Program-made: the position numbers and the translations under genes
The notes under the pieces: model-generated
Databases searched by the model: none
Told to the model about the DNA's origin: nothing
What the model saw: the letters and a program-made list of their open reading frames with translations, nothing else
Shown: positions 16,643 through 64,000 of the stretch, one piece after another
Numbering within the stretch: the stretch's first letter is position 1
Layout of the letters: every line of letters starts with the position of its first letter
DNA from: Propionibacteriales bacterium
GTDB lineage: Bacteria; Actinomycetota; Actinomycetes; Propionibacteriales; Nocardioidaceae
Assembly (NCBI GenBank): GCA_009377795.1
Contig: WHTJ01000009.1
Coordinates: 1 to 64,000, forward strand
Direction: 5' to 3'
Length of the DNA stretch: 64,000 nt

Positions 16643-16687
16643 TGGCGCGCTCGGAGGGATTCGAACCCCCAACCTTTTGATCCGTAG
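16643..16687. repeat. attR: 45-bp direct repeat inside tRNA-Arg
   Basis: Identical to 4887-4931. It starts at the encoded CCA end of the tRNA and stops at the first base of the anticodon loop, so strand exchange most likely takes place in or near the anticodon region, as is usual for tyrosine integrases using tRNA genes. The repeat restores a full tRNA on this side. Confidence 0.93.
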
Positions 16688-47178: not shown

Positions 47179-47200
47179 ACCGATCGATCGCTCGGTCGGT
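47179..47200. promoter_or_regulatory. Candidate TetR operator between ligase and TetR
   Basis: A 22-bp near-palindrome in the 99-base divergent gap: ACCGATCGA and TCGGTCGGT are the two ends. Such ACCGAnCGn...CGnTCGGT sites are typical of TetR regulators of acyl-CoA genes. Confidence 0.6.
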
Positions 47201-47254
47201 GTTAGACTCCCCGAGCGGATGCGGACCTGTCAAGGGCGCGAGGGGCGGAAGGCC

Positions 47255-47899
47255 ATGACCAACAGACCAGCGGTGGCGGAGCCGGTCCCGGCGGACTGGC
47301 GTCTCTACCCCCCGAGCTCCCTGCCCCTGATCCTGGAGGCGGCGCTCGCGTGCTTCGTGGAGCAGGGCTACCACGGCACGACGATCCGGGTCATCGCCGG
47401 CCGGGCGGGGCTGTCCGTCCCGGGTCTCTACCACCACTACGCCTCCAAGCAGGCGCTCCTGGTCGCGATCGTGTCGCACGCGATGGGAGAGCTCTGGGAT
47501 CGAAGCCTGGCCGCGCTGGAGGAGGCGGGTGACGACGTGGTGCGCCGGTTCGACCTTCTGGTCGAGTGTCTTGTGCTCTTCCACGCCCATCGGCGGGAGC
47601 TCGCCTTCATCGCGGCCAATGAGATCCGGAGTCTCCTGGGCCAGGCACGCGCCGACCACATCGCCGCGCGTGACCGCCAGCAGCGCCTCATGGATGACGT
47701 GGTCGCGCAGGCGGTCGCGCAGGGTTTGTTCACGACGCCGTTCCCACGGGAGGTGAGCCGGGCGGTGATCACCATGTGTACCGGCGTCGCCCAGTGGTAC
47801 CACCACGGGGGTCCGCTTCGACCCGACGAGCTTGCGCGCGAGTACTGCACGGTCGCGCGCATGGCGGTTGGCAGTACCGCGCCGGAGGTGACGACATAA
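47255..47899 (+). CDS. TetR-family regulator (1)
   Basis: 214 residues: HTH near 25-70 (LILEAALACFVEQGYHGTTIRVIAGRAGLSVPGLYHHYASKQALLVAIV) and a ligand domain of the PA/FadR-like TetR_C type (HRRELAFIAANEIRSLLG). It likely represses the divergent ligase-SDR-ACAD-kinase operon through the palindrome at 47179-47200, with an acyl-CoA as ligand. GCGGAAGG precedes the ATG. Its stop overlaps the probable start of the next gene. Confidence 0.92.
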   Translation: MTNRPAVAEPVPADWRLYPPSSLPLILEAALACFVEQGYHGTTIRVIAGRAGLSVPGLYHHYASKQALLVAIVSHAMGELWDRSLAALEEAGDDVVRRFDLLVECLVLFHAHRRELAFIAANEIRSLLGQARADHIAARDRQQRLMDDVVAQAVAQGLFTTPFPREVSRAVITMCTGVAQWYHHGGPLRPDELAREYCTVARMAVGSTAPEVTT

Positions 47900-51238: not shown

Positions 51239-52804
51239 TCAGGCATCGGCGAACTGCTCCCGCAGCTCCCGCTTCAGCACCTTCCCGTAGGCGCTCACCG
51301 GCAGGCTGGGCACGACGTGGACCTGCTTGGGTTTCTTGTACGACGCCAGGTGCCTGCCGCAGTAGTCGATCAGGGCGCCGTCCTCCGGTTCGGTGCCCTC
51401 GGCGGGCACGACCACCGCAACCACCCGTTCGCCCCAGTCGCGATCGGGGATGCCGATGACGGTGACGGCGGCGACCTCCGGGTGCTGGATCAGCACCTCC
51501 TCGACCTCGCGCGCGTACACGTTCGCACCGCCGGTGATGATCAGGTCCTTGAGCCGGTCGAGGACGTAGAGGTATCCGCGCTCGTCGAGCTTGCCGATGT
51601 CGCCGGTGTGGAGCCAGCCGCCACGCAGCGTCCTCGCCGACTCGTCCGGACGTTCCCAGTACCCGCTCATCACCGCCGGGCCGCGCACCACGATCTCGCC
51701 CAGCTCACCTGCCGGCACGGGGTTGTCGTCCTCGTCCACCAAACGGACCTCCATGCCGGTGCGGCTGCAGCCCGCGGACGCGAGGCGGGCCTCGACCGCG
51801 GGATCGCCCAGGGCGTGCTCCTCCTGACGCAGGTACGTCGCCGTCATCGGCGTCTCACCCTGCCCGTAGACCTGGACGAGCACCGGGCCGAGCCGCTCGA
51901 CGGCGACCTTGAGGTCCTCGACATGGAACGGCGCGCCCCCGTACACGATCGAGTGCAGCCGGCTCAGGTCGCGGTCGGCCAGGGCTGGACTCTGGACCAG
52001 CCGGTTCACCTGCGTCGGCACCAGCCAGGTGTTCGTGACACCCTCGCGCTCGATCAGCTCCAACGTCGCCTCGGTGTCGAAGGCCGCCTTCTCCGGGATG
52101 AGGTTCGTGCTGCCCTTCGCGATGGCCGCGAGTGCGTGGAAGCCGGCGCCGTGGGTGAGCGGAGCGGCGTGCAGGGTGACGTCCTCGGGCTTCAGCGGCA
52201 TGAGGTCGGCCACCCATCCGACCATGACGAACATCAGGTTGCCGTGGGTGAGCATGGCGCCCTTCGGGCGGCCGGTCGTGCCGGAGGTGTAGAACAACCA
52301 GCAGAGGTGGTCGGGCGACACGTCGACGGCTGCGTCGGGCGCATCGGGGTGGAAGGCGATCAGGTCCTCGTAGTCGTGCACTGCGGCCTGCGCCGCCGCG
52401 GGGCGTGCCTGGTCGAGCGAGATCACGTGCATCACCGACGGGGTCCGGTCCAGCGCTTTCTCCACGTCGTCCCGGAACTCCGGCCCGTGCACGATCGCCA
52501 CGGCCTTCGGATCGTCGAGGTGGTAGACGAGCTCTGCGCTGTTGAACCTGGCGTTCAGCGGGACCACGCAGAGCCCGAGCTTGAACGCGGCGAAGAGCAC
52601 CTCCAGCAGCTCGGGACGGTTCCACATGACGAAGCCGATCCGGTCCCCCGTGGACAATCCAAGGTTCGTGAGCGCGGCGGCGAGTGAGTTCACCCGGTCG
52701 TCGAGCTCCCGGTAGGAGAGGCGCTGTCCTCCCCACCGCACCGCGTCGTGGCCCGGGTAGTGCAGAGCCGTGTCCGTCAACAGGCGACCGATGTTCATGC
52801 GCAC
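51239..52804 (-). CDS. Acyl-CoA synthetase (AMP-forming) (2)
   Basis: 521 residues. P-loop FYTSGTTGRPKGAM near residue 171, VQVYGQGETPMTATYL, GWLHTGDIGKLDERGYLYVLDRLKDLIITGGANVYAREVEE and catalytic lysine SAYGKVLKRE near 510. It resembles medium- or long-chain acyl-CoA or cyclohexanecarboxylate-type ligases. First gene of the operon with thioesterase and alcohol dehydrogenase. A copy of the 16-bp operator (52839-52854) lies 35 bases before its start. Confidence 0.93.
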   Translation of the reverse strand: MRMNIGRLLTDTALHYPGHDAVRWGGQRLSYRELDDRVNSLAAALTNLGLSTGDRIGFVMWNRPELLEVLFAAFKLGLCVVPLNARFNSAELVYHLDDPKAVAIVHGPEFRDDVEKALDRTPSVMHVISLDQARPAAAQAAVHDYEDLIAFHPDAPDAAVDVSPDHLCWLFYTSGTTGRPKGAMLTHGNLMFVMVGWVADLMPLKPEDVTLHAAPLTHGAGFHALAAIAKGSTNLIPEKAAFDTEATLELIEREGVTNTWLVPTQVNRLVQSPALADRDLSRLHSIVYGGAPFHVEDLKVAVERLGPVLVQVYGQGETPMTATYLRQEEHALGDPAVEARLASAGCSRTGMEVRLVDEDDNPVPAGELGEIVVRGPAVMSGYWERPDESARTLRGGWLHTGDIGKLDERGYLYVLDRLKDLIITGGANVYAREVEEVLIQHPEVAAVTVIGIPDRDWGERVVAVVVPAEGTEPEDGALIDYCGRHLASYKKPKQVHVVPSLPVSAYGKVLKRELREQFADA

Positions 52805-52838: not shown

Positions 52839-52854
52839 TGGACTGATCAGTACA
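52839..52854. promoter_or_regulatory. Shared 16-bp operator, copy A
   Basis: TGGACTGATCAGTACA, upstream of the ligase at 51239-52804. Its complement TGTACTGATCAGTCCA differs by one base from the copy at 62989. It contains the perfect decamer ACTGATCAGT. Confidence 0.65.
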
Positions 52855-53769
52855 TTAGACGGGGGTCGACTGGCCGTCAACGCTCCCCGAACGCCGACCC
52901 CGCGAGTTGACCAGGTAGATGCCCACGGCGACCGCCCCGCCACCGAAGAACAGACCGGGGTGCAGTGTCTCGCCCAGCACGATCACGCCGAGAGCGGACG
53001 CGATGATCGGTACCGCGAAGATCCACGACGTCACGACGCCTGCCTTTCCTCGGCGCAGCAGCACGAACAGCAGCCCGAAGCCGCCGATGCCGGCCAGCGC
53101 TCCCGCCCAGGCCATGGCGAAGAAGAGGGGGACTCCCCAGGTCGCCGTACTGGTGCCCAAGGCCGCGAGGAGGCTGACCGGGAGCAGCCCATAGAGGTTC
53201 TGCCACAGCAGGAGACTCCACACCGAGACCTCCGCCGGCAGCCACTTGACGAACAGCGTGCCGGCTGCCCAGGCTACGGCCGAAGCGAGCAGCAGCAGTA
53301 CGGAGCCGATCGGTGTCAGCCCGAGCTCGAGCTCTCCGAACACCAGCAGGACGACGCCCAGCCATCCGGTCACCAGGCCGAGTACCTGTCGCAGAGTCAG
53401 CCGCTCACGCAGCAGGAGCGCAGCACCCAGGGCCACCAGGAGGGGCTGGGTGTAGATCAGCACGGATGCGATCCCGATCGGCGCATGAACCAGGCCGGCG
53501 TTCTGCAGCGCCATGAACGCGGTGACATTGGTCGCGCCCAGCGCGACCCCGTAGCGATGGACGCCGCGACCGCCCAGGAACCCGCCGTGGGACCTCCGGC
53601 GGGTCGCTACGACGATCAGCAGCACGGTGGTGGCGGCCACCACGCGGAGGACTGTGAACACCTCGGGTGAGGAGTACGTCAGCCCGAGCTTGATCGCCAG
53701 AAAGGACGAACTCCAGATCGTCCACAGGGCGGCGATGATCGCCGGAGTGGAGGTCAGGCGTGCGATCAA
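52855..53769 (-). CDS. EamA/DMT-family metabolite exporter
   Basis: 304 residues with ten membrane helices arranged as two EamA repeats (ALWTIWSSSFLAIKLGLTYSSPE...; AVAWAAGTLFVKWLPAEVSVWSLLLWQ...), including the repeat signatures P-x-x-x-A...LGE near the end (IIASALGVIVLGETLHPG). It exports small metabolites of unknown kind. TTG 53769 is the likely start, overlapping the TGA of the OB-fold gene; the hydrophobic region starts right after. Last gene of the thiolase operon. Confidence 0.87.
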   Translation of the reverse strand: MIARLTSTPAIIAALWTIWSSSFLAIKLGLTYSSPEVFTVLRVVAATTVLLIVVATRRRSHGGFLGGRGVHRYGVALGATNVTAFMALQNAGLVHAPIGIASVLIYTQPLLVALGAALLLRERLTLRQVLGLVTGWLGVVLLVFGELELGLTPIGSVLLLLASAVAWAAGTLFVKWLPAEVSVWSLLLWQNLYGLLPVSLLAALGTSTATWGVPLFFAMAWAGALAGIGGFGLLFVLLRRGKAGVVTSWIFAVPIIASALGVIVLGETLHPGLFFGGGAVAVGIYLVNSRGRRSGSVDGQSTPV

Positions 53770-53984
53770 GCCGCTGGCCGGTAGGCCGCCACGCCCTCCA
53801 CGGGGCTGTCTGCCTGCTCGAGGTTGGTGCCAGGCGGTGGAACGGCGTCGGGGGCGCACAGCAGCCTGCCGGTGCGCAGACCCGCAGAGGTGCGGACCAC
53901 GGCCACGACGTAACCAGGCTCCAGGCCAGGTGGTGGCACGCGAATCACCGTGGCCGCCTCCAGCGTGACGGCGTCGTCAGCCAT
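53766..53984 (-). CDS. Small OB-fold protein, thiolase partner (DUF35-like, no zinc ribbon)
   Basis: 72 residues: TLEAATVIRVPPPGLEPGYVVAVVRTSAG, LCAPDAVPPPGTNLEQ and VAAYRP. This is the OB-fold half of DUF35/ChsH2-type partners of thiolases and hydratases (VxxPPxGxExPYVVAVV). The N-terminal rubredoxin-like zinc ribbon of full-length DUF35 proteins is absent. Its ATG overlaps the stop of the thiolase gene (ATGA), and its TGA overlaps the exporter's TTG. It probably binds and stabilises the thiolase, as in steroid-degradation lipid-transfer thiolases. Confidence 0.75.
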   Translation of the reverse strand: MADDAVTLEAATVIRVPPPGLEPGYVVAVVRTSAGLRTGRLLCAPDAVPPPGTNLEQADSPVEGVAAYRPAA

Positions 53985-55135
53985 CAGGCCCTCCCGAGGA
54001 TCGTGACGGTTGCGCTCGCACCGCAGCCACCCAGGTTATGCGCCATGCCCAGTTCGGCGCCCTCGACCTGCTGGGCCGCCGTGCCACGAAGCTGTGCGGT
54101 GATCTCGTGGATCTGGGCGAGCCCGGTCGCGCCCACCGGATGCCCGCGCGAGAGCAGTCCGCCGCTGGGGTTGACGACCAGCTTCCCCACGTCGAAGGTC
54201 GTTGCCCCGTCCGTGATCGCGGCTCCCGCTTCACCGCGGGGGAGCAGCCCGAGGTCCTCGCAGTCGACGATCTCCGCGACGCTGAAGCAGTCATGGAGCT
54301 CCACGACCTGGAGGTCGGCCGCCGTGATGCCGGCTCTCGCGTAGGCGCACGTGCTCGCGGACGTCGTGGCCGGGAAGCTGGTCAGGTCCTCGATGTCGGA
54401 GATCGACGCCGGCCCGGACGCCTGTTCGCACGCGAGCACCTCGACGGCAGACTGCGCGGTGGTCGGGCGGTCGACCGTCACTACCGCGGCGGCCGCGCCA
54501 TCGGAGATCGGCGAGCAGTCGTACAGCCGGAGCGGGTCCGCGATCGGTCTCGAGCCGAGGACGTCGTCCACGGTGACCTCCTCGCGGAACATCGCCAGGG
54601 GATTGTGGCGGCCGTGGCGGCGGTTCTTGACCACGACCGAGGCCGTCTGCTCGCGCGTGGTCCCGTAGCGGGTTTCGTGCGCCTGCGCGACCAGCCCGAA
54701 AAAGCCGGGGAAGGTGAGGCCGGTGGCCCCGTCGGTCTCCCGGTCCATCGCCTCCGCGAGGCCGCGGGTCACCTCGGGGACCGGCGACGCGGTCAGCTGC
54801 TCCGTGCCGATGGCGAGCGCGACGCGGGCATCACCGACGCGACAGGACATGACGGCGTGCCGCAGAGCGATGCCCGCGGAGGCGCAAGCACCTTCCACGG
54901 CCGTAGCCGGCACGAACGGAAGTCCGAGGCCGCGTGCGACCAGGGACGCGAGGACTCCCTGGTGGTGCAGCGACTGTCCCAGGAAGTTCCCCACGTACAC
55001 GGTGTCCACGTCCTCGGGCTGCACCCCGGCTTCCTCCAGGGCCGCGCGGCCGGCCTCGACGGCGAGCTCGACGGTGTTCGCCTCAGGGTGTCGGCCGAAG
55101 GTCGTCATCGCCGTGCCGGCGACGTAAACGTTCAT
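53984..55135 (-). CDS. Thiolase (SCP2/lipid-transfer type acetyl-CoA acetyltransferase)
   Basis: 383 residues. AVEGACASAGIALRHAVM near residue 81 carries the reactive cysteine, VELHDCFSVAEI near 279 the HDxF motif typical of SCP2/SCPx-type thiolases, and VNPSGGLLSRGHPVGATGLAQ near 320 the GHP loop; NLGGCGASATV closes with the second cysteine. It cleaves a 3-ketoacyl-CoA. The OB-fold partner downstream fits this thiolase type. ATG 55135 is preferred. Operator copy B lies between it and the divergent CitE-like gene. Confidence 0.92.
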   Translation of the reverse strand: MNVYVAGTAMTTFGRHPEANTVELAVEAGRAALEEAGVQPEDVDTVYVGNFLGQSLHHQGVLASLVARGLGLPFVPATAVEGACASAGIALRHAVMSCRVGDARVALAIGTEQLTASPVPEVTRGLAEAMDRETDGATGLTFPGFFGLVAQAHETRYGTTREQTASVVVKNRRHGRHNPLAMFREEVTVDDVLGSRPIADPLRLYDCSPISDGAAAAVVTVDRPTTAQSAVEVLACEQASGPASISDIEDLTSFPATTSASTCAYARAGITAADLQVVELHDCFSVAEIVDCEDLGLLPRGEAGAAITDGATTFDVGKLVVNPSGGLLSRGHPVGATGLAQIHEITAQLRGTAAQQVEGAELGMAHNLGGCGASATVTILGRA

Positions 55136-55169
55136 CGGACCTCCCTGATGGACATCGTTCAGGACCTGA

Positions 55170-55185
55170 TGTACTGGCCGGTACA
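55170..55185. promoter_or_regulatory. Shared 16-bp operator, copy B
   Basis: TGTACTGGCCGGTACA in the 62-base divergent gap between thiolase and CitE-like gene, so it can control both. Confidence 0.65.
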
Positions 55186-55197
55186 AGTCTAGCAAGG

Positions 55198-56091
55198 ATG
55201 GTGAGCCGCATGCATCGGTCCATGCTCTTCGTCCCCGCGGACGACGCCGGGCTGCTGGCGGACGGCGTGGCCAGCGCGGCGGACGGACTTATCCTCGACC
55301 TCGAGGACACGGTGGCTCTCGACCGCAAGGCAGAGGCGCGCGACCAGGCCGTCGATGCGCTTCGACAGCACCCGGGGCGGTCGCTGTCCGTGCGGGTGAA
55401 CAGTGTGGACAGCCGGTTCGTCGTCGAGGACCTGACGGTGCTGGTGGACGCAGCGGGGGAGAACGTGCGGGAGGTCTGGCTCCCCAAGGTGGAGCGTCCG
55501 GAGCAGGTGACGCACGTCGACTGGCTGCTGCGCAGTCTGGAGCAGCGGGCCGGAGTGCCCGTCGGGCACGTGGAGCTGCGTGCCCTGGTCGAGACAGCGG
55601 CCGGTCTCGAGGAGATCTCCGGCATCGCCCGCGCCTCGCAGCGGCTGCGGCAGCTGGCCTTCGGGATCGCAGACCTCTCCGGCGATCTCGGCCTGCGGTG
55701 GCCGACGGACGGCAGCGAGCAGCTGTACGTCCGCAGCCGCTTGGCGGTCGCCTCGCGCGCGGCGGGGTTGGCTCGGCCGGTGGACAGCGTCTGGCCGCGG
55801 ATCGACGACGAGAAGGGCTTGCGTGTGGACTCCCGTGCCGCCAGGACGTTGGGCTTCTCCGGCAAGTTCGCGCTGGCTCCGTCGCAGGTGGAGACGATCA
55901 ACGAGGCGTTCTCCCCGACACCCGAGGAGGTACGCCGGGCGGTGCAGCTGCTCGAGGCCTTCGCGAGTGCTGAGCGGGACGGCCGAGCCGCACTCCAGTT
56001 GCCGAACGGGGAGTTCGTCGACTACGCATTCCTCCACCAAGCGGAGGAAATGGTCGAGGCTGGCCGGCGTCTGGGAGTCGTCCCTGACTAG
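55198..56091 (+). CDS. CitE-like HpcH/HpaI aldolase (citrate lyase beta/malyl-CoA lyase family)
   Basis: About 297 residues. RSMLFVPADDAGLLADGVASAADGLILDLEDTVAL opens the family, with VRVNSVDS near 66, VWLPKVERPEQ near 92, VELRALVETAAGLEE near 124 with the metal-ligand Glu, and FGIADLSGDLGL near 157 with the second acidic ligand. Members cleave or make malyl-CoA, beta-methylmalyl-CoA, citramalyl-CoA or HMG-CoA-like thioesters. It supports a pathway ending in a branched or hydroxy acyl-CoA. ATG 55198 or 55210; GGATGGTGA favours 55210 slightly. Confidence 0.88.
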   Translation: MVSRMHRSMLFVPADDAGLLADGVASAADGLILDLEDTVALDRKAEARDQAVDALRQHPGRSLSVRVNSVDSRFVVEDLTVLVDAAGENVREVWLPKVERPEQVTHVDWLLRSLEQRAGVPVGHVELRALVETAAGLEEISGIARASQRLRQLAFGIADLSGDLGLRWPTDGSEQLYVRSRLAVASRAAGLARPVDSVWPRIDDEKGLRVDSRAARTLGFSGKFALAPSQVETINEAFSPTPEEVRRAVQLLEAFASAERDGRAALQLPNGEFVDYAFLHQAEEMVEAGRRLGVVPD

Positions 56092-56130
56092 GTCGAACCC
56101 CTCGGCAGATTGTCGAGGGAAACCGCTAGG

Positions 56131-56146
56131 TGGACCATTCAATACG
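56131..56146. promoter_or_regulatory. Shared 16-bp operator, weak copy C
   Basis: TGGACCATTCAATACG, 9 bases before the TetR start at 56155. It keeps the TGGAC arm and TAC of copy A but differs mostly by transitions inside. An autoregulatory site is plausible. Confidence 0.4.
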
Positions 56147-56154
56147 ATGGTCGC

Positions 56155-56811
56155 ATGGAGGTTTCGGCAGCGACGATGCATGAGCACAGCATGACCGGGG
56201 GTGGACCGCTCCCGTCGGGCGCACGGGCGACGACGCGCAAGGGCACGATGACGAAGGAGCGGATCCTTCGCACCGCCGCCGAGCTCTTCGCCCGCAACGG
56301 CTATCACGCCACGGGCCTCAGCGAGCTGGGTGACGCGGTGGGCCTCGGACGTGGGGCGCTGTACTACCACATCGGCAGCAAGGAGAACCTTCTCTACGAG
56401 CTGAGCGTCCGACACGTGCAGGAGATGGTGGACTACGGCGAGAAGCTGTTCTCGTCGCCGCTGGGCGCCGAGGAGCGGTTCCGCCGGCTCAGTCGCAAGC
56501 TCATGCGGGTCATCGCCGACAACCTGCCTGAGCTGACAGTGTTCTTCCGCGAGATCAACTCCTTCAGCGGGGAGCGCCACCAGCGCATGGTCGAACTGCG
56601 TGAGCGGTTCGAGAACCTGTGGCTCCAGGTCATCAGTCACGGCGAGGCCGAAGGGTTGTTCCTGCACGGCGACGCGCTGACGGTCAAGGCCGTCCTCGGC
56701 ATGCACAACTACAGCTATCTCTGGATCGACCCGGAGGGGTCGCTCACCCCCGAGGAGGTCGCGGACCGCTTCTGCGACATCTTGCTGCACGGCCTCATCA
56801 AGCAGGGCTGA
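56155..56811 (+). CDS. TetR-family regulator (2), candidate regulator of the acyl-CoA regulon
   Basis: 218 residues. HTH near 32-75 (TKERILRTAAELFARNGYHATGLSELGDAVGLGRGALYYHIGSKENLLYEL); the C-terminal domain (ELTVFFREINSFSGERHQRMVELRERFENLW) is of the KstR2-like TetR_C type, which senses acyl-CoA intermediates. It lies amid the five operator copies, with one before its own start, which makes it the best candidate to bind them. Start uncertain: ATG 56155 or 56176 (GGAGG 13 bases upstream). Confidence 0.9.
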   Translation: MEVSAATMHEHSMTGGGPLPSGARATTRKGTMTKERILRTAAELFARNGYHATGLSELGDAVGLGRGALYYHIGSKENLLYELSVRHVQEMVDYGEKLFSSPLGAEERFRRLSRKLMRVIADNLPELTVFFREINSFSGERHQRMVELRERFENLWLQVISHGEAEGLFLHGDALTVKAVLGMHNYSYLWIDPEGSLTPEEVADRFCDILLHGLIKQG

Positions 56812-56842
56812 CCACCTTCACAAACCTGCAACTTCTGTCTAT

Positions 56843-56858
56843 TGTACCGTTCAGTCCG
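56843..56858. promoter_or_regulatory. Shared 16-bp operator, copy D
   Basis: TGTACCGTTCAGTCCG, 52 bases before the start of the ligase at 56910. Matches the TGTACYGnYCAGTCCA consensus at all but the last base. Confidence 0.6.
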
Positions 56859-56909
56859 GTCGCACGACTGGCTGCACGCAATTTGACCCCGGCCGGGGAG
56901 GCAGACGCA

Positions 56910-58559
56910 GTGGACCTGGAGGAACCGTCTACGACGGAGGTGTGGAGGCGCTCCACCGCCTTGCTGAGCCAGGATCCGGAGCTCGAGCTCAACACGTTCC
57001 AGGAGGCCTGCGGCAAGTGGGCCGCCGACAGGAGCAAGCTCGCTCTCGTCGTTCGCCACGAGGACGGCTCCTCCGAACGCTGGACTTATCACGACCTGGC
57101 GCGCGAGGCGGCGCGGGCGGCGCGCCTGTTCGCGGACGTCGGTCTTCGCCCCGGCGACCGGGTGGCCGCCGTACTCACGCGTCAGGTCGAGGCCTGGATC
57201 TGCGCGCTGGCCGCGTGGCGGTCGGGGCTGGTCTACGTACCGCTCTTCGTCGGTTTCGGTGGTGACGCGCTCGCGGCGCGGCTGTCCACGTCCCACGCCC
57301 GCGCCGTCGTCGTCGACCACCGCTGGCGGGCCCCTTTGGCCGACGCTCAGGACCAGCTCGACGAAGACATCGAGGTGATCGCCGTCGGAGGCCCCCGCGG
57401 CGCGGGCATCCGGCGGGGCGACCGGAGCTTCTGGGCGGAGATGGAGCTGTGCGACGCGGACGGTCCGGTGGTCCGGACGAGCCGTGACACCCCGGCGACC
57501 CTGATGTTCACCAGTGGCACCACGAGCCAGCCCAAGGCGTGCGTCATCCCGCACTCCGGGTTCGTCGCGCTGCTTCCGTTCGTCGAGCACGTGTTCGCCG
57601 TCGACCATCGCGACCTGCTCTTCTCCACCAGCGACCCCGGCTGGTCCTACGGTCTCTACACGACCGGATGCACCCCGATGTCGATGGGCGTTCCGCGCCT
57701 GATCTACACCGGCGACTTCGACCCGAAGGCTTGGCTTCGGGTGATGGAGGAGGAGCAGGTCACGTTCGCGGCCGGCGCGCCGACCGCGTTCCGCAAGCTG
57801 CTCGCCGCTGCCCGCCGTTCCGGATTCCCCTCGGCCCTACGGGGAGCGAGTACGGCGGGTGAGCCGCTCGATCCCGAGACCGCCCAGGGCTGGCACGAGC
57901 TGTCCGGGACCCGGCTCCGCGACGGCTACGGACTCACCGAGATGGGCATGGTCCTCGGCGACATCGCGGAGCCGGAGGTGCACACCGAGCCGGGCACGCT
58001 GGCGGCCGCGGTCCCCGGCTTCGAGGTGTGCCTGGTCGACGAGAAGGGCGAACCGACCGACGCCGACGAGGGCCGCATCGCGATCCGGCGGCCGCCGTTC
58101 CAGCTCTCCGCGGGGTACGAGAACGCGTCGGAGGCGTGGGATCAGCGCTGGGTCGGCGACTGGTATGTCACCGACGACATCGCGCAGCGCAACGAGCACG
58201 GCAACTGGCGGTTCGCCGGACGTGCCGACGATGTGATCGTGACCTCCGGCTACAACGTGGGGCCCGTCGAGGTCGAGTCGATCCTCCTAGAGAACCCCGG
58301 GGTCGCGGAGGCGGCGGTCGTCGCCGCTCCGGACCCTGAACGCGGATCGGTCATCCGAGCGGTGATCGTGAGGTCTGATGGCGCATCCGCTCCGGACGTC
58401 CTCGTGCCACAGCTGCAGGACGCCGTCCGTCGACGACTCGGACGCCACGCATACCCGCGAATCGTCGAGTTCCTCGACTCCCTGCCGAGAACCGCAACCG
58501 GAAAGTTGCGGCGGGCCGAGCTACGCACCACCCCGGTGGGACGACTTGAGGAGAGGTGA
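56910..58559 (+). CDS. Acyl-CoA synthetase (AMP-forming) (3), ACSM/acetate-ligase-like
   Basis: 549 residues. P-loop LMFTSGTTSQPKACVIPH near residue 197, with Ser-Gln where most ligases have Gly-x, DGYGLTEMGMVLGD, WYVTDDIAQRNEHGNWRFAGRADDVIVTSGYNVGPVEVES and catalytic lysine TATGKLRRAE near 530. The layout (GDPGWSYGLY-like SDPGWSYGLYTT) is that of ACSM and acetyl-CoA-synthetase relatives, so short or medium acids are likely. GTG 56910 after GGGGAGG. In operon with AtoE and enoyl-CoA hydratase. Confidence 0.92.
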   Translation: MDLEEPSTTEVWRRSTALLSQDPELELNTFQEACGKWAADRSKLALVVRHEDGSSERWTYHDLAREAARAARLFADVGLRPGDRVAAVLTRQVEAWICALAAWRSGLVYVPLFVGFGGDALAARLSTSHARAVVVDHRWRAPLADAQDQLDEDIEVIAVGGPRGAGIRRGDRSFWAEMELCDADGPVVRTSRDTPATLMFTSGTTSQPKACVIPHSGFVALLPFVEHVFAVDHRDLLFSTSDPGWSYGLYTTGCTPMSMGVPRLIYTGDFDPKAWLRVMEEEQVTFAAGAPTAFRKLLAAARRSGFPSALRGASTAGEPLDPETAQGWHELSGTRLRDGYGLTEMGMVLGDIAEPEVHTEPGTLAAAVPGFEVCLVDEKGEPTDADEGRIAIRRPPFQLSAGYENASEAWDQRWVGDWYVTDDIAQRNEHGNWRFAGRADDVIVTSGYNVGPVEVESILLENPGVAEAAVVAAPDPERGSVIRAVIVRSDGASAPDVLVPQLQDAVRRRLGRHAYPRIVEFLDSLPRTATGKLRRAELRTTPVGRLEER

Positions 58560-58588
58560 GATCCCGGTGGTGACACCACCGGGATCTC
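58558..58588. terminator. Perfect 31-nt palindrome at the ligase stop
   Basis: Two 15-base arms around a central A, sharing the last two bases of the ligase stop codon. There is no T-run after it. It may be a weak terminator or attenuator, or an mRNA-processing hairpin, in the 70-base gap before the AtoE gene. Confidence 0.65.
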
Positions 58589-58629
58589 GCGGGGAATCAA
58601 CATTCCGCTTCCGCTAGGAGGAACAAGCA

Positions 58630-60138
58630 GTGAACAAGCTAGCCCGACCATTCGTGGTGTTCGTTGAGCGGTTCTACCCGGATCCGTTCGTCTTCGCCAT
58701 CGGCCTGACCGTGATCGTGTTCCTGCTGGCCCTTGGCCTCACGGACTCGGGACCCTCTGATGCCGTCGTCGCCTGGGGTGACGGTCTCGCCGATCTGATG
58801 ACCTTCATCGGCCAGCTGGCCCTGACCATCGTCACCGCCCACGCGCTCGCGCACACCGACGCGGTACGAAAGGGACTGGGACGCCTGGGTCGTATCCCCA
58901 ACTCGCCGGCCGTCGCCTACGGCATGGTGGCGTTCATCGCCGGCGTGGCGAGTCTGTTCGCCTGGGCCTTCGGTCTGGTTGTGGGCGCATTGATCGCCCG
59001 GCAGGTGGCCATGGAAGCGCGGAAGAAGGGGCTGAAGCTGCACTACCCGCTGCTGGTGGCCTCTGCCTACGCCGGCTTCGTCATCTGGCACATGGGTTAC
59101 TCGGGATCGGCGCCGCTGTTCGTGGCTACGGAGGGCCACGCCCTCGAGGAGCAGGTCGGCGGAATCATTCCGGTCTCGGAGACGATCTTCGCCCCCTGGA
59201 ACATCGCCACGGCCGTCGTTGCGCTCGTCGCAGTCACCGGGCTGATGGCGCTCCTGAGGCCCAAGGAGGGACGCGACAAGATCATCGAGATCAGCGATGC
59301 CGCGATCGAGGATTACCAGGAGACGATGGCCCGGATGGACCGGGAGCTCGTCGCCGCAAGCGCCTCCGGGGGTACCGCTGCCGCCGGCGGTTCCGAGACT
59401 GCGGTGAGCAGCTCGCGCTCCTCGGAAACCGTTGCCACGCAGGAGGCCGGAGCCGGCGGCCCGAGCACTGTGACCGCCGGTGGGGGGACCGACAATGGGA
59501 GTCGCACGATCGCCGATCGGCTGGACAAGACCCGCATCCTCAGCCTGTTCGCGGGCCTCGCCCTGGTGGTCTACCTCGTCATGTACTTCGGGGACGCCGG
59601 CCTCAACCTGACTCTGGACGTGGTGAACTGGACCTTCCTGGCCCTCGGCCTCCTGCTCTCGCGCTCGGTCCTCCACTACGTCAAGCTCATCGGTCACGCG
59701 AGCACGGCGGTCGGGCAGATCATCCTGCAGTACCCGTTCTACGCGGGGATCATGGGCATGATGGCCGGCACTGGGCTCATCTCGGTGTTCGCCGACTGGT
59801 TCACGAGCGTCTCCTCCGCCGACACCCTGGGCTTCTTCGCGTTCCTCTCCGGCGGCATCCTGAACATGTTCGTTCCCTCCGGTGGTGGACAGTGGGCCAT
59901 CCAGGGTCCGATCTTCATCGAGGCCGCCCAGAACCTGGGGACCGACCCGTCGCGAGTGGTCATGGGTGTTTCCTACGGTGACCAGTGGACGAACATGATC
60001 CAGCCGTTCTTCACGATCCCGCTGCTGGCGATCGCCGGCCTGCACGTCCGGCAGATCATGGGCTACACCTTCCTGGTCCTGATCGTCACCTTCTTCATCT
60101 TCGGTGGCGGCATCCTGCTCGCCGGTTCGGGAGCGTGA
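58630..60138 (+). CDS. AtoE-family short-chain fatty acid transporter (2)
   Basis: 502 residues, paralogue of the protein at 38654: VFVERFYPDPFVFAIGLTVIVFLLAL, LFAWAFGLVVGALIARQ, HYPLLVASAYAGFVIWHMGYSG, and FVPSGGGQWAIQGPIF near 418. A hydrophilic Ser/Gly/Ala-rich insert (residues 235-295) lies at the same place as in the paralogue. AGGAGG eight bases before the GTG. Between an acyl-CoA ligase and an enoyl-CoA hydratase, it likely imports the acid those enzymes degrade. Confidence 0.92.
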   Translation: MNKLARPFVVFVERFYPDPFVFAIGLTVIVFLLALGLTDSGPSDAVVAWGDGLADLMTFIGQLALTIVTAHALAHTDAVRKGLGRLGRIPNSPAVAYGMVAFIAGVASLFAWAFGLVVGALIARQVAMEARKKGLKLHYPLLVASAYAGFVIWHMGYSGSAPLFVATEGHALEEQVGGIIPVSETIFAPWNIATAVVALVAVTGLMALLRPKEGRDKIIEISDAAIEDYQETMARMDRELVAASASGGTAAAGGSETAVSSSRSSETVATQEAGAGGPSTVTAGGGTDNGSRTIADRLDKTRILSLFAGLALVVYLVMYFGDAGLNLTLDVVNWTFLALGLLLSRSVLHYVKLIGHASTAVGQIILQYPFYAGIMGMMAGTGLISVFADWFTSVSSADTLGFFAFLSGGILNMFVPSGGGQWAIQGPIFIEAAQNLGTDPSRVVMGVSYGDQWTNMIQPFFTIPLLAIAGLHVRQIMGYTFLVLIVTFFIFGGGILLAGSGA

Positions 60139-60905
60139 TGCCGACGTCGAGAATCCGGACCGACGGACAGGCTCCGTTCGTATGGGTCGTGCTCGATGCA
60201 CCGGCCAAGCGCAACGCGCTCGACACGGAAGCACTGCGTGGCCTCGCGGAGACTGTCCACCGGCTTGCCGCGGATCCGGAGGTCGCGGTCATCGGCCTGC
60301 GTGCCGAAGGTGACCACTTCTGCGCGGGTGCGGACATCGACGAGCTCAGGGCCCTCGGTTCGTCCGCAACGGCACGGGAGCACGCACGCATCGGGCAGGC
60401 CGCGTGCAACGCGCTCGAGCAGGCACCCGTGCCGGTGGTCGCCGCCATTCAGGGGTACTGCGTCGGCGGTGGGCTCGAGCTCGCGATGTCGGCCGACATC
60501 CGCATCGCGACGCCGGACGCCCGGTTCGGCCAGGTGGAGCTCGGCATCGGAAGCATCGCCGCCTGGGGCGGCATGCGACGACTGCCCCGCCTGGTCGGGG
60601 TGGCCGTGGCGAAGGACCTCGTGTTCTCGGCACGGCACATCGATGCAGTGGAGGCACGCGTGCGCGGCCTGATCAACGATGTGGTCGAGGACGGCGACCT
60701 CGTCACGGCTATCGAGCAGCGGACGGAGCATCTCCTGACGGCGCCCAGACTCGCGCTCGCCGCGAGCAAGCGAGCACTCGACCACTGGGCCGACGTACCC
60801 CTGGCGGCCGGTCTGGAGGACGACCGCGAGACGTTCGCGTGGCTCATGGAGGGCGACGAGTTCCAGGACGGCGTGAGCCGGTTTCTGGCTCGGTCCGGTC
60901 GCTGA
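60138..60905 (+). CDS. Enoyl-CoA hydratase/isomerase family protein
   Basis: 255 residues. Crotonase fold: VVLDAPAKRNALDTEALRGLAE, oxyanion hole HFCAGADIDEL near residue 60, IQGYCVGGGLELAMSADIRIATPDARFGQVELGIGSIAAWGG near 105-145. One glutamate is conserved (VELGIG), and the second usual Glu position (GGGLELA) is also present, so hydratase activity is plausible. ATG 60138 overlaps the AtoE stop (TGATG). Confidence 0.93.
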   Translation: MPTSRIRTDGQAPFVWVVLDAPAKRNALDTEALRGLAETVHRLAADPEVAVIGLRAEGDHFCAGADIDELRALGSSATAREHARIGQAACNALEQAPVPVVAAIQGYCVGGGLELAMSADIRIATPDARFGQVELGIGSIAAWGGMRRLPRLVGVAVAKDLVFSARHIDAVEARVRGLINDVVEDGDLVTAIEQRTEHLLTAPRLALAASKRALDHWADVPLAAGLEDDRETFAWLMEGDEFQDGVSRFLARSGR

Positions 60906-60939
60906 CGTCGTGGGACGTCACAACCGTCGGCCGTGACCG

Positions 60940-60979
60940 GAGCAGGGCCCCTCACGAGGGTTCGTAAGGGGCCCTGCTC
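60940..60979. terminator. Bidirectional terminator
   Basis: A 13-bp stem (60940-60952 with 60967-60979) between the convergent hydratase and acyl-CoA dehydrogenase genes. Confidence 0.8.
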
Positions 60980-60997
60980 GCGTCCGGTCCGCCGGTG

Positions 60998-62164
60998 TCA
61001 GGCTCCGGGAGCGTTCCACGCGTCATCGAACGCGTAACCCTCCAGCAATTCCCGGGCGATCACGAGGTACTGGATCGTCGGCGTCCCCTCCTCCAGCCAG
61101 TTCAGGCGCGCGTCACGGTACAGCCGTTCGATGGGGTGGCGGCGGGTGTAACCGATGCCGCCGTGGACGAGCAGGGCGCGGTCGGTCACCCTGCCCACCG
61201 CCTCCAGGCCGAACTGCTTGCACATCGCCGACTCGGCCGGAATCCGCTTGCCCGCATCCCATTTCGCCGCCGCGTCGAGAAGCATGTTCCGGAGGGCGTA
61301 GACGTCGACCGCCATCTCGGCGAGGTAGCGCTGCACCGCCTGCCGCTGCGCGATCGGCTTGCCGAAGGTGACCCGCTGCTGTGCGTACTGCCGCGAGAGA
61401 TCCAGGGCTCGCTCGGAGGTACCCCACGAGCTGGCGGCGATGAACACCCTGCTGATCTCGAGCGCACGCTCGAGATGGTCCTGACCCTGGCCCTCCTCGC
61501 CGACCAGCGTGGAGACCGGGACGCGAACGTCCTGGAACGTCACGACGCCGTGCTCACCGCCCTTGCACCCCATGGTCTCGGGCAGCCGCTCGATCGACAG
61601 CCCCGGCCGGTCCCGTTCCACGAGGAAGGCGGAGACCTCGGTGTCGGAGGTCTTCGCCAGGACGAGGAAATGGCTGGCGAAGTCGGAGTTCGTGATCAGC
61701 CACTTGCGGCCGTTGATGACGTACTCGTCGCCGTCACGACGGGCGCGAGTGCCCAGGTCCGCACCCGTACCGTGCTCCGGCTCGGTGAGCGCGAACGCCA
61801 GCGACTTCTCGCCGACCGCCGCACCGGGGAGCAGTGCGTCCTTCTGCTCGCGACCGCCGATCTCGGACAGGGCGTGTGCGAACGAGTTGTGCACGTGGAT
61901 GGCGGCGCGGATGCCGCCCTGGATCTTCGCGAACTCAGCGACGATGGGTAGGTACTGCGCGATGGAAAGCCCGGAACCGCCGTACTCCCGCGGGATGAGC
62001 AGGCCGAACGCTCCACTCTCGCGGAGCACCGGCCAGACCTTGTCGTAGGGAATGCGCTCGTTGTCCTCGATCTCCTGCTCCAGGGGGTCGAGCTCATTCC
62101 AGATCGCGTCGAAGGTCTTGTCGCGAAGCGCGACGTACTCCTCCTCCGGGAGTCCAACGGTCAT
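60998..62164 (-). CDS. Acyl-CoA dehydrogenase (2)
   Basis: 388 residues: LLIPREYGGSGLSIAQYLP, SLAFALTEPEHGTGADLGTRARRDGDEYVINGRKWLITNS near 120-160, QRVTFGKPIAQRQAVQRYLAEM, and HGGIGYTRRHPIERLYRDARLNWLEEGTPTIQYLVIARELL at the end, with the EGTxxIQ catalytic-Glu segment of classical enzymes. It introduces the alpha-beta double bond. ATG 62164 is preferred over GTG 62173 because GAGGTGG precedes it. Downstream of the SDR gene (48 bases). Confidence 0.93.
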   Translation of the reverse strand: MTVGLPEEEYVALRDKTFDAIWNELDPLEQEIEDNERIPYDKVWPVLRESGAFGLLIPREYGGSGLSIAQYLPIVAEFAKIQGGIRAAIHVHNSFAHALSEIGGREQKDALLPGAAVGEKSLAFALTEPEHGTGADLGTRARRDGDEYVINGRKWLITNSDFASHFLVLAKTSDTEVSAFLVERDRPGLSIERLPETMGCKGGEHGVVTFQDVRVPVSTLVGEEGQGQDHLERALEISRVFIAASSWGTSERALDLSRQYAQQRVTFGKPIAQRQAVQRYLAEMAVDVYALRNMLLDAAAKWDAGKRIPAESAMCKQFGLEAVGRVTDRALLVHGGIGYTRRHPIERLYRDARLNWLEEGTPTIQYLVIARELLEGYAFDDAWNAPGA

Positions 62165-62212
62165 GGGCGCCACCTCTCCGTGTATGTGGTCACTGGATCG
62201 AGTCGTTTCTGG

Positions 62213-62980
62213 TCACAGGGACCAGCCACCGTCCACGTTCAGAACGGTGCCGGTGCAGTACGTCGCGTCCTCGGACAGGAAGACCGCCGCAGTGGCGATC
62301 TCATCGGCAGTGCCGAAGCGGCCGAGCACCGTTTCGGTGTGGATCCGCTGGCGCGCCTTCTCGGGTACGGCCGAGGTCATGTCGGTGTCGACGAAGCCCG
62401 GCGCGAGGACGTTCACCCGGATGCCGTCCTGCCCGACTTCCTTGGCCAGCGAGCGGGCAAAGCCCACCATGGCGGCCTTGGCGCTGCCGTATGCCGTGTC
62501 TCCGGCGTGTCCGATCAGCCCCACCACGGAGGAGACGAGGAGGATGCTCGGCCGGTCGCTGCTCCTCAGTGCCGGCAACGCCGCCCTCGTGATGTGGGAC
62601 AAGCTGCCGACGTTGTGTTCGACCACCCGCCACCAGCGGTCGTGATCGAGGCGCTCGATGAGGCCGCCGTCCCAGACGCCCGCGTTCAGGATCAGAGCGT
62701 CCAGCTTCCCGAAATGCTCTCTCGTCGCTGCCACGGCATCGGCGGCGGAGTTCTCGGAGCTCAGCTCGTAGCGGATCGGAAGCACCCGCGGGCCCAGCTC
62801 CGCCACGAGTGCCGCAGCCCGCTCCGCACTCGAGTGGTAACCGCAGCCCACGCCGGTGCCCCGAGCCGCGAGCCGCCGGACGATCGCCGCGCCGATCCCG
62901 CGCGAGCCACCGGTCACGAGAACCACTCGCCCGGTCCCTCGGTCCTCCGAGGACGACGAGGGTGGCAGCGAGGAGCTCAT
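62213..62980 (-). CDS. Short-chain dehydrogenase/reductase (FabG-like)
   Basis: 255 residues: TGGSRGIG near 24, NAGVWDGG near 99, SSVVGLIGHAGDTAYGSAKAA with Ser and Tyr-x3-Lys near 150-168, PGFVDTDMT and TGTVLNVDGGWSL at the end. Reduces or oxidises a 3-hydroxyacyl or keto group. Operator copy E is 9 bases before its start, divergent with the racemase-like gene. Confidence 0.93.
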   Translation of the reverse strand: MSSSLPPSSSSEDRGTGRVVLVTGGSRGIGAAIVRRLAARGTGVGCGYHSSAERAAALVAELGPRVLPIRYELSSENSAADAVAATREHFGKLDALILNAGVWDGGLIERLDHDRWWRVVEHNVGSLSHITRAALPALRSSDRPSILLVSSVVGLIGHAGDTAYGSAKAAMVGFARSLAKEVGQDGIRVNVLAPGFVDTDMTSAVPEKARQRIHTETVLGRFGTADEIATAAVFLSEDATYCTGTVLNVDGGWSL

Positions 62981-62988
62981 GCAAGTAC

Positions 62989-63004
62989 TGTACTGACCAG
63001 TCCA
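62989..63004. promoter_or_regulatory. Shared 16-bp operator, copy E
   Basis: TGTACTGACCAGTCCA in the 111-base divergent gap between the SDR (62980) and the racemase-like gene (63092). It differs by one base from the complement of copy A, 10 kb away. Confidence 0.65.
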
Positions 63005-63091
63005 TTCGGCTCACAACGCCCGGGCGCGGTATGGCCCGTGGGGACCTCAGTCGGGCGGGCAGACAGGTTTCGACGTCGAGAGGACGGTGGG

Positions 63092-64000
63092 ATGAACGGT
63101 CCACATCCGCCTGAACCTCCGGTGAGCAACCCGGGGCCCCTGGCCGGGCTGCGGGCCCTCGAGCTCGGAGGCATCGGACCGGGGCCGTTCTGCGGCATGT
63201 TGCTGGCCGACCTCGGTGTGGACGTGGTGAAGGTCGAACGGGTCGACGTCGCGGACACTCCTGCCGACGACTCCGCTCGGTACGAGGTGCTGAACCGAGG
63301 ACGCACGTCGGTCGCCGTCGACCTGAGGACGTCGGAGGGGCGGGACATAGCCTTGTCGCTTGTCGAGACATGCGACATGGTCTTCGAAGGATTCCGGCCG
63401 GGCGTCGCGGAACGTCTCGGCGTCGGCCCGGCAGAGTGCATGGCCAGGAACCCGCGGGTCGTCTATGGGCGGATGACGGGATGGGGCCAGCGTGGCCCCC
63501 TGGCGCAGACCGCCGGCCATGACATCAACTACATCGCGCTGACTGGCGTTCTCGACGCCATCGGAACAGCGGGAGGGCCGCCCGTGCCGCCGCTGAACCT
63601 CCTGGGCGACTTCGGTGGTGGTGGCGTGTTCCTGGCGCTCGGCCTCGTCAGTGCCGTGTGGGAGTCCGCCCGCTCCGGACATGGCCAAGTGGTCGACGCC
63701 TCCATCGTGGACGGTACGTCGGCCCTGCTCGGCATGCTCATGGGCATGCGCAGCGCCGGCGACTGGACGGGAAGTCGCGGCGAGAATCTCCTCGACGGTG
63801 GTGCCCACTTCTACGGCGTGTACCAGTGTGCGGACGGTCATTTCATCTCGGTGGGGGCGATAGAACCGCAGTTCTACGAGCGGTTCCTCGATGGGCTGGG
63901 GGTGGAGGATGTTCCTGCCGATGACCGCATGGAACCCACGGACTGGCCTGCCCTACGCGAACTGGCGGCTGAGGCATTCCGGGGCAGAACTCGCGCCGAG
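63092..64000 (+). CDS. CaiB/BaiF family, alpha-methylacyl-CoA racemase-like (3' end beyond window)
   Basis: 303 codons are visible and the frame is open at the window end. LAGLRALELGGIGPGPFCGMLLADLGVDVVKVER is the class III CoA-transferase/AMACR opening; QTAGHDINYIALTGVLDAIG near residue 140 and LLDGGAHFYGVYQC near 233 match the racemase's histidine region and GGxxFYxxY segment. The AMACR reaction inverts a 2-methylacyl-CoA so that beta-oxidation can proceed. It is therefore consistent with branched-chain acid catabolism in this region. ATG 63092 follows GAGAGGACGGTGGG. Confidence 0.88.
   Translation, partial: MNGPHPPEPPVSNPGPLAGLRALELGGIGPGPFCGMLLADLGVDVVKVERVDVADTPADDSARYEVLNRGRTSVAVDLRTSEGRDIALSLVETCDMVFEGFRPGVAERLGVGPAECMARNPRVVYGRMTGWGQRGPLAQTAGHDINYIALTGVLDAIGTAGGPPVPPLNLLGDFGGGGVFLALGLVSAVWESARSGHGQVVDASIVDGTSALLGMLMGMRSAGDWTGSRGENLLDGGAHFYGVYQCADGHFISVGAIEPQFYERFLDGLGVEDVPADDRMEPTDWPALRELAAEAFRGRTRAE

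Follow-up and report, generated by a model that had tools for sequence, protein, structure and literature searches.

Sites A, B, D and E, four copies of a 16-bp palindrome, lie in the promoter gaps of an acyl-CoA gene cluster and are real, standing far above chance expectation. Together with a fifth, weak copy (C), they are very probably (roughly 0.88 on our estimate, made from the sequence) operators of the TetR-family protein encoded at 56155–56811 on the plus strand, which would act as an acyl-CoA-relieved repressor of the local pathway. All positions refer to the window, that is, the whole stretch of 64,000 nt analysed (bases 1–64000 of contig C90, in an assembly of 4.58 Mb, 182 contigs and 96.8% completeness), unless another contig or locus is named.

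Operator A (52839–52854, minus strand) is a predicted operator in the promoter gap of ligase 2 and reads TGTACTGATCAGTCCA towards that gene. Operator B (55170–55185, no strand assigned) is TGTACTGGCCGGTACA in the divergent thiolase/CitE gap, C (56131–56146, plus strand) is TGGACCATTCAATACG before the tetR gene, D (56843–56858, plus strand) is TGTACCGTTCAGTCCG, a predicted operator before ligase 3, and E (62989–63004, minus strand) is TGTACTGACCAGTCCA in the divergent gap between the short-chain dehydrogenase (SDR) and CoA-transferase genes. A, B and E follow the symmetric pattern TGKACYGNNCRGTMCA exactly and D follows it with one mismatch. Direct reading of the DNA confirmed the coordinates of all five sites as given by an earlier sequence-only reading, and likewise its observations that A and E are one base apart over 10 kb and that the sites occupy gaps before the named genes. 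All five sites are outside reading frames if the thiolase starts at the ATG (55135) and not at the TTG (55195).

When the window was searched with the A/E consensus, allowing up to three mismatches, seven strand-matches were obtained, every one at A, B, D and E, with an expected count of 0.35; none of 100 shuffles reached seven, the maximum being two. A symmetric matrix built from A, B, D and E found no further match of at least 14 bits in the window. Site C had already been called weak, and its score of 11.0 bits is indeed at background. It is not significant by sequence alone, because three other window positions (4465, 18187 and 63088) score equally high, and what raises it above its poor score is a promoter register identical to that of E. 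The match at 63088–63103 (TGGGATGAACGGTCCA, 11.7 bits) is located where the family III CoA-transferase gene begins and probably arose by chance.

The genes behind these sites are those of an acyl-CoA pathway. The target of A is an AMP-forming acyl-CoA ligase (ligase 2, 51239–52798, minus strand), and those of B are a thiolase (Thiolase_N, Thiolase_C_1; 53984–55135, minus strand) and a CitE/HpcH-type C-C lyase (55198–56091, plus strand). D precedes ligase 3 (56910–58559 with a putative start codon, plus strand), which is closest to the AcsA/MbcS type and is probably followed in the same operon by a short-chain fatty acid transporter of the AtoE type (58630–60138, plus strand) and an enoyl-CoA hydratase (60138–60905, plus strand). 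On one side of E is a FabG-like SDR (62213–62980, minus strand), with an acyl-CoA dehydrogenase (60998–62173, minus strand) probably downstream in the same E-controlled operon; the divergent target (63122–64000, continuing to 64282 of contig C90, plus strand), formerly labelled a racemase, is instead a family III CoA-transferase of putative activity. No substrate-specific equivalog model matched, at its cut-off, any of the ligases, CoA-transferase or dehydrogenases in the proposed regulon. The pathway is perhaps one for a short acid, which may be branched or dicarboxylic.

The regulon is local. The whole genome was searched by pattern, with the reversed pattern as control, and exact copies of TGKACYGNNCRGTMCA are confined to A, B and E. 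Allowing one mismatch gave 17 places genome-wide, D included, versus 28 for the reversed control, so that the motif is at background outside the cluster; a looser one-arm pattern gave 40 strand-matches, of which seven are within the cluster and the remaining 33 compare with 34 for the control. Of the one-mismatch places elsewhere that were read, only C16:27543 and C102:15142 are outside predicted reading frames. These two were not taken as regulon targets; they precede unrelated regulators (an AefR-type TetR and a PadR-type regulator, respectively). The first of them (TGTACGGGACAGTACA, C16:27543–27558, or 2544–2559 of locus L049) has TGAACTGCACGGACCAGTTCA nearby and lies between an MFS transporter and the AefR-type TetR; the pair looks like that TetR's own operators. 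A random-like spread through coding DNA genome-wide, which the sequence-only reading had named as evidence against a regulon, was thus looked for, and the motif proved to be local to the cluster.

Strong evidence that the sites belong to the 56155 TetR comes from its relatives. Only A, B, D and E went into the matrix, and loci were picked purely by protein similarity to this TetR; up to 20 kb was read around each close relative (27 loci, 444 kb), and shorter stretches around remoter ones (66 loci, 417 kb). The close loci contain 41 sites of at least 14 bits and 13 of at least 20 bits, the 41 matches not being 41 independent events because several of these loci are near copies. Among 300 column-permuted palindromic matrices none reaches either count (mean 2.7 and maximum 33 at the lower threshold, mean 0.02 at the higher one). 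The 66 remoter loci gave two sites and none, respectively. Although 83% of the DNA is coding, 34 of the 41 matches are in gaps or at gene starts (p 2e-20). A site of at least 13 bits is present within 400 bp upstream of the TetR gene in 16 of the 27 close relatives versus 0 of 46 remote ones. Mapped onto the TetR tree, presence of the motif requires 6 label changes versus 19.2 in shuffles, a contrast inflated by the near copies and by the shorter remote stretches. A scan with the core alone (KACYGRYCRGTM) over 46 TetR upstream regions was too unspecific in G+C-rich DNA. These site counts and upstream frequencies lend strong comparative support to the earlier proposal that the 56155 TetR controls a local regulon.

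Across the relatives' gap sites the half-site is T G K A C C/T G A/G, and the site and relatives of the 56155 TetR are found together in several actinobacterial classes as well as in one alphaproteobacterium. Some loci with a close TetR (L018, L019, L119, L121, L134 and L135) have no strong site nearby. L018 encodes a TetR 53% identical to the 56155 TetR and shows no site in its 10.8 kb, the locus starting only 2.2 kb before the gene. In L123–L130 (up to 20 kb each), which carry a more distant branch of the TetR, many copies of TGTACCGRYCGGTCMA surround PF04199 cyclases, ligases, SDRs and acyl-CoA dehydrogenases; these loci may represent a larger catabolic regulon with the same operator code.

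In Aeromicrobium sp. PE09-221 (L116), where the TetR is 73% identical, the acyl-CoA dehydrogenase 76%, the SDR 72%, the CoA-transferase 67% and ligase 3 68%, a site at 16657–16672 occupies the divergent SDR/CoA-transferase gap, with the same gap and register as E. The dehydrogenase is also preceded by a site, and the gap between tetR and ligase 3 holds a degenerate copy, placed as D is in the window. In locus L017 a perfect TGTACTGATCAGTACA directly precedes tetR, and the dehydrogenase (78%) and CoA-transferase (55%) genes come next; L120 has two sites between an SDR–dehydrogenase–TetR run and a divergent transporter–ligase 3 run. The acyl-CoA dehydrogenase is 76–78% identical in three motif-bearing loci.

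The 56155 protein matches PF00440 (TetR_N, 52.1 bits) and PF17932 (TetR_C_24, 102.6 bits), both above cut-off, and its AlphaFold model has nine helices with a mean pLDDT of 85.7. It possesses the N-terminal helix-turn-helix and the all-helical C-terminal ligand domain of the TetR family, and its proposed palindromic operators overlap predicted core promoters, in the manner of that family. Among solved structures its best match by phmmer, hmmsearch and Foldseek is PfmR (PDB 3vpr); in the fold search PfmR is followed by DarR, AibR with isovaleryl-CoA, KstR2 and the fatty-acid FadRs.

Could the sites belong to another regulator, either the TetR_C_24 protein at 47255–47899 or a distant TetR, with the 56155 TetR merely encoded among them? 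We regard this as improbable, although it is the best surviving alternative. The genome has seven TetR_C_24 matches, two of them in the window, and the one at 47255–47899 is only 5 kb from A; moreover, the site at C16:27543, which scores 20.3 bits, precedes an AefR-type TetR. Against this, the motif also occurs in other classes together with relatives of the 56155 TetR, whose genes it precedes, and the C16 site departs from the conserved core (GGGACA). Two branches of the TetR tree hold most of the motif-bearing loci, and the 47255 TetR is outside these branches and is preceded by a different palindrome, GACCGATCGATCGCTCGGTC(GGT), at about 47181–47203. That second regulator, absent from the sequence-only reading, is on the plus strand, divergent from a ligase (45485–~47170, minus strand); a long minus-strand frame reaching 47806 overlaps it, and the start of that frame is probably spurious.

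The placement of the sites relative to predicted promoters bears on how the 56155 TetR would act. Two registers are observed, and each predicted -10 box is partly dictated by the motif's own letters. In the first, seen in A, D and the Aeromicrobium D, the operator begins 3 nt into the -10: A overlaps the 3′ half of TAATGT (52857–52852; -35 TTGACG at 52880–52875, spacer 17), and D overlaps TATTGT (56840–56845; -35 TTCACA at 56817–56822, spacer 17), this TTCACA-17-TATTGT being the sole sigma-70-like promoter found by a scan of 10.5 kb. TTCACA, the spacer length of 17 nt and the register are all retained in the Aeromicrobium D, whose -10 is TAACAT. In the second register, seen in E, the Aeromicrobium E and C, the operator ends in the -10 (TACAGT, TACACT and TACGAT, respectively) and the ATG follows 6 nt later. 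Here E overlaps TACAGT (62992–62987), 6 nt from the SDR ATG, and C ends inside TACGAT (56143–56148), 6 nt from the ATG at 56155. An ATG at this distance from the -10 resembles leaderless actinobacterial transcripts. At B no convincing -10/-35 pair was found, and neither register clearly fits.

Repression, rather than activation, is the most likely action of the TetR, given the overlap of its sites with predicted -10 boxes or start points. There is a slight possibility that it binds the sites but activates, or exerts dual control, at some of them: TetR-family activators exist, and the register of A and D is unlike that of C and E. However, all the placed sites overlap a -10 or a start point, positions at which a dimer on the DNA would obstruct the polymerase, and the sites of PfmR are similarly placed. 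The idea of chance palindromes, or of a structural repeat with no regulatory role, draws on C being at background by itself, and is refuted for A, B, D and E by the comparative test, as well as by the window shuffles (0 of 100), the background level elsewhere in the genome and the conservation of sites in the same gaps in another genus.

The sequence-only reading was aware of no described regulator having exactly this site, a remark that needs qualification. A literature search with the motif letters returned two relevant matches only, PfmR and the PaaR of Burkholderia. PfmR (TTHB023) of Thermus thermophilus HB8 matches the 56155 TetR in sequence at 2e-32 and in fold with 36% identity and 2.0 Å over 187 columns; 3VPR is its structure (PMC10636190). 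In vitro selection with PfmR yielded the consensus (a/c)Y(g/t)A(A/C)YGryCR(g/t)T(c/a)R(g/t) (PMC7022988), a 16-bp palindrome whose inner 12 bp, KACYGRYCRGTM, are the same as in the window motif, so the site has a close published precedent. This core fits fully in A, B and E, D is off at one central base (T for R), and C does not fit. The outer two bases on each side differ, being of the CT..AG type in PfmR and TG..CA in the window; since the outer bases (MY..RK) thus fail, the 56155 TetR is classed as PfmR-like and not as PfmR. The two proteins also have only about a third of residues identical, and they come from different phyla with different gene sets. PfmR sites occupy promoters or start points, at its own operon (acyl-CoA dehydrogenase, ligase and SDR genes) and at a thiolase; they often span start points, and the genes are those of fatty acid metabolism and probably also of phenylacetate metabolism (PMC7022988).

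Other known systems resemble this one in part. SbtR (TTHA0167) of Thermus thermophilus resembles the present case by its site: its operator TGACYrnnyRGTCA has the same core geometry (PMC7022988), but outer bases unlike those of the window motif. PaaR of Burkholderia cenocepacia is a TetR repressor of an acyl-CoA catabolic pathway with inverted repeats in core promoters (PMC2770484); its operator ACCGACCGGTCGGT was rejected as the same site, showing no fit to the window motif in the same register. BkaR/Fad35R of mycobacteria is an autoregulated TetR from a region with CitE and acyl-CoA ligase genes and a 16-bp-core palindrome (PMC3920632), and its motif GTTA(N)T(N4)A(N)TAAC was likewise rejected as unlike that of the window. 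AibR and KstR2 belong to the same fold group as the 56155 TetR at about 25% identity, and the structure of AibR was solved with isovaleryl-CoA. KstR2 responds to a CoA thioester, and its operator differs from the window motif.

We propose the following mechanism for the 56155 TetR. A TetR dimer would bind the 16-bp palindrome TGKACYGRYCRGTMCA, both the binding and the dimer stoichiometry being presumed. The bound dimer would block RNA polymerase at the ligase 2 promoter (A), the thiolase and CitE promoters (B), the ligase 3–transporter–hydratase promoter (D) and the promoters of the SDR–dehydrogenase operon and the divergent CoA-transferase (E), and the TetR would repress its own gene more weakly via C. 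Once a growth substrate has entered the cell and been activated, one of the pathway's CoA thioesters would most likely bind the TetR_C_24 domain, upon which the repressor would be released and the whole local pathway switched on. There is less certainty about the ligand, both as to its being an acyl-CoA and as to which acyl-CoA it would be; the fold neighbours and the gene context make an acyl-CoA the most likely choice.

In the literature searched, no paper describes the present regulon, which on this basis is new, although of an ordinary kind. On balance, we lean towards a broader reading, in which the 56155 TetR would represent a widespread, undescribed subfamily of TetR repressors, extending through several actinobacterial classes into Alphaproteobacteria, with one operator code (TGTACYGRYCRGTMCA) and with regulons rewired to different acyl-CoA pathways: in the window that of an acid with a short or branched chain, and elsewhere those of loci that carry PF04199 cyclases. 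If so, one operator matrix would predict many catabolic regulons. By marking the genes of the acyl-CoA cluster that would be expressed in concert, the sites help to narrow down both substrate and inducer; they also provide a testable operator code for a large set of TetRs that are as yet uncharacterised. A repressor/operator pair of this sort could find use in sensing acyl-CoAs.
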